A stretch of DNA of 64,000 nucleotides, from positions 1 through 64,000 of the forward strand of contig JAJZLY010000005.1 of the NCBI GenBank assembly GCA_021850485.1, read 5' to 3'. The stretch comes from Bacillota bacterium. Lineage in GTDB: Bacteria; Bacillota; Sulfobacillia; JAJZYS01; JAJZLH01. A program made the position numbers and the translations under genes. The notes under the pieces were generated by a model. That model saw nothing but the letters and a program-made list of their open reading frames with translations, had not been told where the DNA came from and searched no databases. Positions 51,929-52,541 of the stretch are shown here, in pieces. Every line of letters starts with the position of its first letter. Positions within the stretch are counted from its first letter, which is position 1.

Positions 51929-52396
51929 TCAGCCTTGCAAGGCGGCTAGAACTTGTGCCATCGGCGGCTGGTCGGTCGCATCCTTCAGCCACTGGTAGAT
52001 GAGCCGACTGTCTGGCCCGAAGACGAACACGGCTCGATTCGAAACATTCAAGATGCCCGCCACCTCGGGCAGCAGCACGCCGAAGGCCGCTGCCGCCTGA
52101 CGGTTCGGGTCTGCGAGCAAAGGGTAGGCCAGCGCGTTTTGGGTGGCGAAGGCCTGTTGCACGAACTGGCTATCGATGCTGATGGCGTACACTTCGGCAC
52201 TTTGGGCTTGGATCTGATCCAGCACCTGCTGAACCGCACTCAACTCGCGCAGTCAGCCGCCGGTGAAGGCCAGGTGGTAGAAGACGACAACCAGACGGTG
52301 CGCCGCCGCTCGCTCGGCCAAGTTCACCGTGGGCCCGGCTCCAGACACCAGCTGGACCTCGGGGCAGGGAGCGCCAACTGTAAGTCCTGTGGACAT
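51929..52396 (-). CDS. Selenocysteine-containing peroxiredoxin (AhpE-like), TGA at Sec48
   Basis: Read through the TGA at 52253-52255 the frame gives 155 residues. The ATG at 52396 has GGAGGGG 6 bases upstream. The peroxiredoxin fold is clear on both sides: GAPCPEVQL, LVVVFYHLAFTGG, then (TGA) LRELSAVQQVLDQ, VYAISIDSQFVQQAFATQN, YPLLADPNRQAAAAFGVL and NRAVFVFGPDSRLIYQW. The TGA falls exactly where AhpE-type enzymes have the peroxidatic Cys (L-A-F-T-G-x-C). Both halves are in one frame with no other defect. A SECIS-like hairpin with an AGGU loop follows at a suitable distance. No resolving Cys follows, so it would be a 1-Sec type. A nonsense mutation from TGT or TGC is the alternative; selA-D genes are not in the window. 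Confidence 0.8.
52216..52235 (-). promoter_or_regulatory. Candidate bacterial SECIS hairpin
   Basis: In the mRNA, 8 bases GGUUCAGC pair with GCUGGAUC (two G-U pairs) around the tetraloop AGGU. The stem begins 17 bases after the UGA and the loop lies 25 bases after it. Bacterial SECIS elements generally have a stem of 4-16 bp, a small loop with a G in the first two positions, and a loop 16-37 bases from the UGA; this one meets each rule. The GGU in the loop resembles that of E. coli fdhF. Confidence 0.7.
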
Positions 52397-52541
52397 CTGC
52401 ACCCCTCCGATCGGAGCCCAAGAGACACCACTCATTGTACGTCTTGGCCGCCGTCTGTGGGCCGATGAGTCGCTTGGCTGCTGGCCGGCCGTTATGGTAC
52501 AGTACCAAGGTCTATGTGCCAGGCGACGCTAGGAGGCCGAC

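Follow-up and report, generated by a model that had tools for sequence, protein, structure and literature searches.

Does the TGA that interrupts a peroxiredoxin-like frame in a genome of the Bacillota class Sulfobacillia end a gene, or is it read as selenocysteine (Sec)? We addressed this question in a window of 64,000 nucleotides (i.e., the whole stretch of contig JAJZLY010000005.1 that was analysed) and conclude, with a probability of about 95%, that the locus is a single selenoprotein peroxiredoxin gene in which UGA codon 48 is read as Sec, a figure that does not extend to the choice of reductant. The evidence comprises the frame, its homology, the decoding machinery, and the conservation of both the UGA and a downstream hairpin, and from these we infer Sec incorporation, peroxidase activity, and the reductant.

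A peroxiredoxin frame with one internal TGA

Read through the TGA, the minus strand carries a single frame of 155 residues and a TGA stop (window 52396 to 51929), assigned from the frame and its homology, with the protein sequence MSTGLTVGAPCPEVQ...FYHLAFTGGULRELSAVQQVL...AALQG. The TGA at codon 48 (52253 to 52255, minus strand) lies at the peroxidatic position by translation and alignment and is the only interruption, and a Shine-Dalgarno-like GGAGGGG (52408 to 52402, minus strand) is found 5 nt upstream of the ATG. A previous sequence-only reading of this DNA had merged two called ORFs into one peroxiredoxin frame with a good ribosome site and no other damage, and the intact 155-residue frame, together with a domain match that spans the TGA, agrees with that reading. 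The gene stands alone between divergent rplU-prp-obgE and convergent rng, with only 3 nt between the stop codons of rng and the peroxiredoxin gene. An antisense open frame of 171 residues (51953 to 52468, plus strand) also covers the region; it is probably a spurious ORF, and a gene caller might favor it.

The read-through protein matches Pfam AhpC-TSA over residues 7-134 (E 1.2e-25; 90 bits against a cut-off of 26) and also matches Pfam Redoxin. The AhpC-TSA match and the PDB matches continue through the TGA, and an alignment at position 48, suggested earlier as a check on the locus, indeed places the peroxidatic Cys of solved peroxiredoxins and relatives at this codon. An AF2 model of the full-length protein (pLDDT 94.3, pTM 0.91) has peroxiredoxins as its best structural matches, with Sulfolobus Bcp4, PrxQ, and AhpE about equal. 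Sequence and model together place the product as a predicted peroxiredoxin of the AhpC/TSA type with a Prx-type thioredoxin fold, presumably active as a peroxidase. The original description as "AhpE-like" was right as to the peroxiredoxin family and less so as to type, as the sequence is nearer to archaeal PrxQ/Bcp proteins (E 1.8e-19) than to AhpE of M. tuberculosis (E 3.8e-11).

The decoding machinery, and conservation of the UGA and its hairpin

Three orthologues (in genomes G001, G002, and G056) are 54-65% identical to the window protein and carry TGA at the same codon, with identities of 59 and 65% in the two same-genus genomes and 54% in a same-order genome of another family. The rng/prx/rplU arrangement is kept in the two same-genus genomes, and the gene surroundings differ in the third genome. 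Among 154 genomes of the class and 398 of the phylum (drawn evenly), none yielded a Cys form of this clade; the nearest Cys proteins there are ~30-34% identical (32-34% in the phylum search), and one further contig scan returned two already-known relatives, one distant relative, and nothing else. Identity and the contrast between dN and dS are broadly alike on either side of the TGA; in each half dN is far smaller than dS, and this similar constraint is evidence against a decaying second half. Close relatives with TGT or TGC at this codon and no conserved hairpin had been named as grounds for doubt; instead, the relatives have TGA and a conserved hairpin.

This hairpin, a putative bSECIS element identified by folding and conservation (52216 to 52235, minus strand), pairs 52235-52228 with 52223-52216 in an 8-bp stem located +18 to +37 after the UGA (−9.2 kcal/mol), and its loop AGGU (52227-52224) occupies nucleotides 26-29 past the UGA. 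The loop starts exactly 26 nt after the UGA in all four orthologous genes, so the SECIS-like hairpin that had been proposed is in the right place and conserved at the same spacing in the three orthologues. When the four genes were scanned for hairpins with loop sizes of 3-8 at all offsets from −110 to +289, the +26 site, with its inner variants, was the only place at which an unbroken, stable stem is possible in all four; synonymous-codon resampling reached their summed hairpin stability in 0.12% of trials (P 0.0012). The hairpin encodes a conserved VQQVL/IQQVL stretch, and part of its conservation may be at the protein level, which the synonymous resampling takes into account. Covariation is thin with four orthologues: the G056 hairpin shows one compensatory change (G-C to A-U), sliding the stem partner by 1-3 columns lowers pairing across the four sequences from 91% to 41% or less, and the pair-shuffle (column-shuffle) control is not significant, such that only the slid control favors the helix. 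Published bSECIS criteria specify a loop of 3-9 nt, a stem of 4-16 bp, a G at loop position 1 or 2, a distance of 16-37 nt from the UGA, and an MFE of at most −7.5 (PMC13188914), and the window hairpin falls within all of them (4-nt loop AGGU, 8 bp, 25 nt between, −9.2 kcal/mol), while that of G056 is marginal, with a weak upper stem (−6.3 to −6.9 kcal/mol) that reaches −8.8 only when extended. A search against Rfam gave no SECIS match. The first MFE hairpin, a UGA-proximal stem with its loop at +7 that was examined by single-sequence folds, was set aside: the bSECIS model requires a greater distance from the UGA, and it is the +26 hairpin that all four genes share.

At the level of the genome (1.61 Mb, 97.2% complete), selB (353 bits), selA (487 bits), and selD (348 bits) are each encoded with scores above the curated cut-off, along with a tRNA-Sec with anticodon TCA (72.7 bits); these are the four components that a selenoprotein at this locus had been said to imply, and the lack of selB or selC that had been named as grounds for doubt is not borne out. 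Loci L018 and L055 of the same genome are SelD and formate dehydrogenase, both predicted selenoproteins. The SelD TGA (SNKSGUGCK) is where it usually lies, and in fdhA, the formate dehydrogenase match, the canonical TGA of NRTUHAPSVAGL precedes a hairpin with GCAGGU at its apex, as in the peroxiredoxin hairpin. Given this machinery and the TGA-bearing SelD and fdhA, the genome very probably decodes Sec, with at least three predicted selenoproteins.

These data can be weighed against other explanations of the TGA. If the locus were a pseudogene of a Cys peroxiredoxin whose TGA arose by nonsense mutation or entered as a sequencing or assembly mistake, the interruption itself would be accounted for, and a Cys codon is one base away; yet three independent assemblies, whose proteins are 54-65% identical to that of the window, have this TGA too, both flanks are under purifying selection, the SECIS is conserved, and the Sec machinery is complete, and we regard such an origin as next to impossible. 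A mechanical ORF caller does list 51929-52243 from a TTG, as expected if the locus encoded two separate short proteins (one of 47 residues and a thioredoxin-fold piece started from TTG or GTG). However, the second of these would be missing the start of the fold as well as the catalytic residue, both the Pfam match and the AF2 fold run across the TGA, and the SECIS is conserved, which makes a pair of proteins highly improbable. For a genome-wide reassignment of TGA to Trp or Gly, no support was found; TGA is an ordinary stop elsewhere in the window, where it ends many ordinary genes (including rng, rplU, prp, obgE, and the peroxiredoxin gene itself), and the tRNA-Sec has the anticodon TCA, so that this reading was rejected as having a negligible chance of being correct.

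Proposed catalysis and recycling of Sec48

In the mechanism we propose for the selenoprotein, the hairpin 18-37 nt downstream of UGA codon 48 would recruit SelB-GTP-Sec-tRNA(Sec) to translate that codon of the mRNA, giving a peroxiredoxin with one thioredoxin-fold domain in which Sec is the attacking residue. By alignment, its active-site motif reads HxxxTxxU: the catalytic Thr45 of the TxxU motif (52262 to 52264, minus strand), the Sec, and Arg121 (52034 to 52036, minus strand) are present, and the Pro of the PxxxTxxC/U motif of other peroxiredoxins is His41 (52274 to 52276, minus strand), a substitution seen in all four orthologues. Arg121 is at the position of the usual active-site Arg, probably corresponding to AhpE R116, and the AhpE R116A structure 4xih is listed among the fold-search matches to the AF2 model. 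The Sec48 selenolate, activated by Thr45 and Arg121, would reduce peroxide and be converted to a selenenic acid; because the motif Pro is replaced by His in this clade, catalytic efficiency is uncertain.

The PrxQ resolving position (CP+5) aligns with Ser, Thr, Arg, or Gln in the four orthologues, whereas Cys is present there in Cys relatives (L025-L029, L054) and in the solved structure 2cx3. Because this PrxQ-type resolving Cys is lost, recycling would most likely be carried out by an outside thiol or redoxin, i.e., the protein would act as a 1-Sec peroxidase. The sequence-only reading had stated that no resolving Cys follows, and none is found after the Sec, but an invariant Cys is located 37 residues N-terminal of it, which makes an internal partner possible. 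This residue, Cys11 (52364 to 52366, minus strand; alignment), is the only Cys of the protein and a candidate resolving residue, and each of the four orthologues has exactly two chalcogen residues, Cys11 and Sec48, always 37 apart, while other relatives mostly have Ala at the Cys11 position. A second, less likely route would be an intramolecular or intersubunit selenenylsulfide between Cys11 and Sec48, in which case thioredoxin would reduce the enzyme, an atypical 2-residue peroxiredoxin. The invariant pair and the replacement of the CP+5 Cys are consistent with this route, while the location of Cys11 in the N-terminal segment means that it could instead be structural, and on balance we consider resolution by Cys11 unlikely, if conceivable. 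To our knowledge, no peroxiredoxin class resolves from an N-terminal position like that of Cys11, and we know of no other peroxiredoxin with such a resolving geometry between an N-terminal Cys and a peroxidatic Sec. It is doubtful that the clade represents a distinct Sec-peroxiredoxin subfamily (HxxxTxxU) that lost the motif Pro and the PrxQ resolving Cys, gained the N-terminal Cys11, and resolves Sec48 by a selenenylsulfide.

Whether by an outside reductant, as we favor, or by Cys11, the clade offers a compact natural test, with only two chalcogen residues, of how a Sec-peroxiredoxin without the standard resolving Cys is recycled, and it likewise tests whether the motif Pro is dispensable once Sec replaces Cys.

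Sec-peroxiredoxins in the class and among known systems

By profile search, many class genomes have peroxiredoxins with a TGA, and SelA is present in 22 of the 23 class genomes with a TGA redoxin (Fisher P 0.0013), the exception being 63% complete. Sec-peroxiredoxins are common in this class of Bacillota, and the earlier remark that they are known from "a few anaerobes" understated their spread (PMC1794560, PMC13188914). Published work already counted 12 members and five Cys-to-Sec conversions, and lists one such protein in Symbiobacterium (PMC1794560). In our tree, the window clade, an FPLAFTPGU (or FYPLAFTGGU) clade (L031-L034, L036, L040, L043-L045, L050), an FPLAWTPVU clade (L042, L046, L049), and membrane-anchored UxxC redoxins are each separate, and Sec at the peroxidatic position may have had a single or multiple origins, with only two changes needed. 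The FPLAFTPGU and FPLAWTPVU clades, both found in many class genomes, resemble the window protein in having TGA at the aligned position; they are 32-36% identical to it, keep the motif Pro, and are without Cys11. In most FPLAFTPGU genes the hairpin loop starts at +20 (GGCG, GGAA, or GGAG), versus +26 in the window clade.

The UxxC redoxins (L030, L035, L037, L039, L041) have an apparent N-terminal membrane anchor and a TGA in FYEGATUGACQQQL, which puts Sec three residues N-terminal of where the peroxidatic residue normally lies, with a hairpin at +21/+22 in most; they resemble a known Prx-like thiol:disulfide oxidoreductase. Two further peroxiredoxin matches (G105:C118:61784-62236 and G087:C16:7114-7557) have two internal TGA codons each and are possible double-Sec forms.

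Automatic annotation would cut short or miss the Sec-peroxiredoxin of the window. Several peroxiredoxin clades of this Bacillota class carry a peroxidatic Sec, and selenium-based peroxide defence may therefore be common there. In the open-access literature, we found no paper on the window clade or on Thermaerobacter selenoproteins, nor, by title or abstract, on Sulfobacillus selenoproteins.

Among selenoproteins, Sec peroxiredoxins with a TxxU motif form an established family, to which PrxU of Eubacterium acidaminophilum belongs (Sohling et al. 2001, as cited in PMC13188914). The window protein shares with PrxU the AhpC/TSA fold and a UGA-encoded Sec at the peroxidatic position, but has His for the motif Pro and its sole Cys before the Sec, and it scores far below the cut-offs of both NCBIfam peroxi_PrxU (NF040737; 34 bits against 270) and the thiol peroxidase family Prx-SUH (NF045827; 29 bits against 298), so that neither assignment was accepted. 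The PrxQ/Bcp proteins of Aeropyrum pernix and Sulfolobus (2cx3, 4gqf, 3hjp) provide the best sequence match (2cx3) and the best fold match (3hjp, TM 0.89/0.87). The resolving Cys at CP+5 expected of this 2-Cys, alpha2-type group is nonetheless absent: 2cx3 has Cys at both the peroxidatic position and CP+5, where the window protein has Sec and Ser. AhpE of Mycobacterium tuberculosis (1xvw, 1xxu) is alike in its one-Cys-like architecture, FTGxC/U motif, and fold (TM about 0.87), and differs in its weaker sequence match, in having Cys rather than Sec, and in retaining the motif Pro. The window gene is a separate clade, yet a member of a known Sec-peroxiredoxin kind, with unusual details at its active site.
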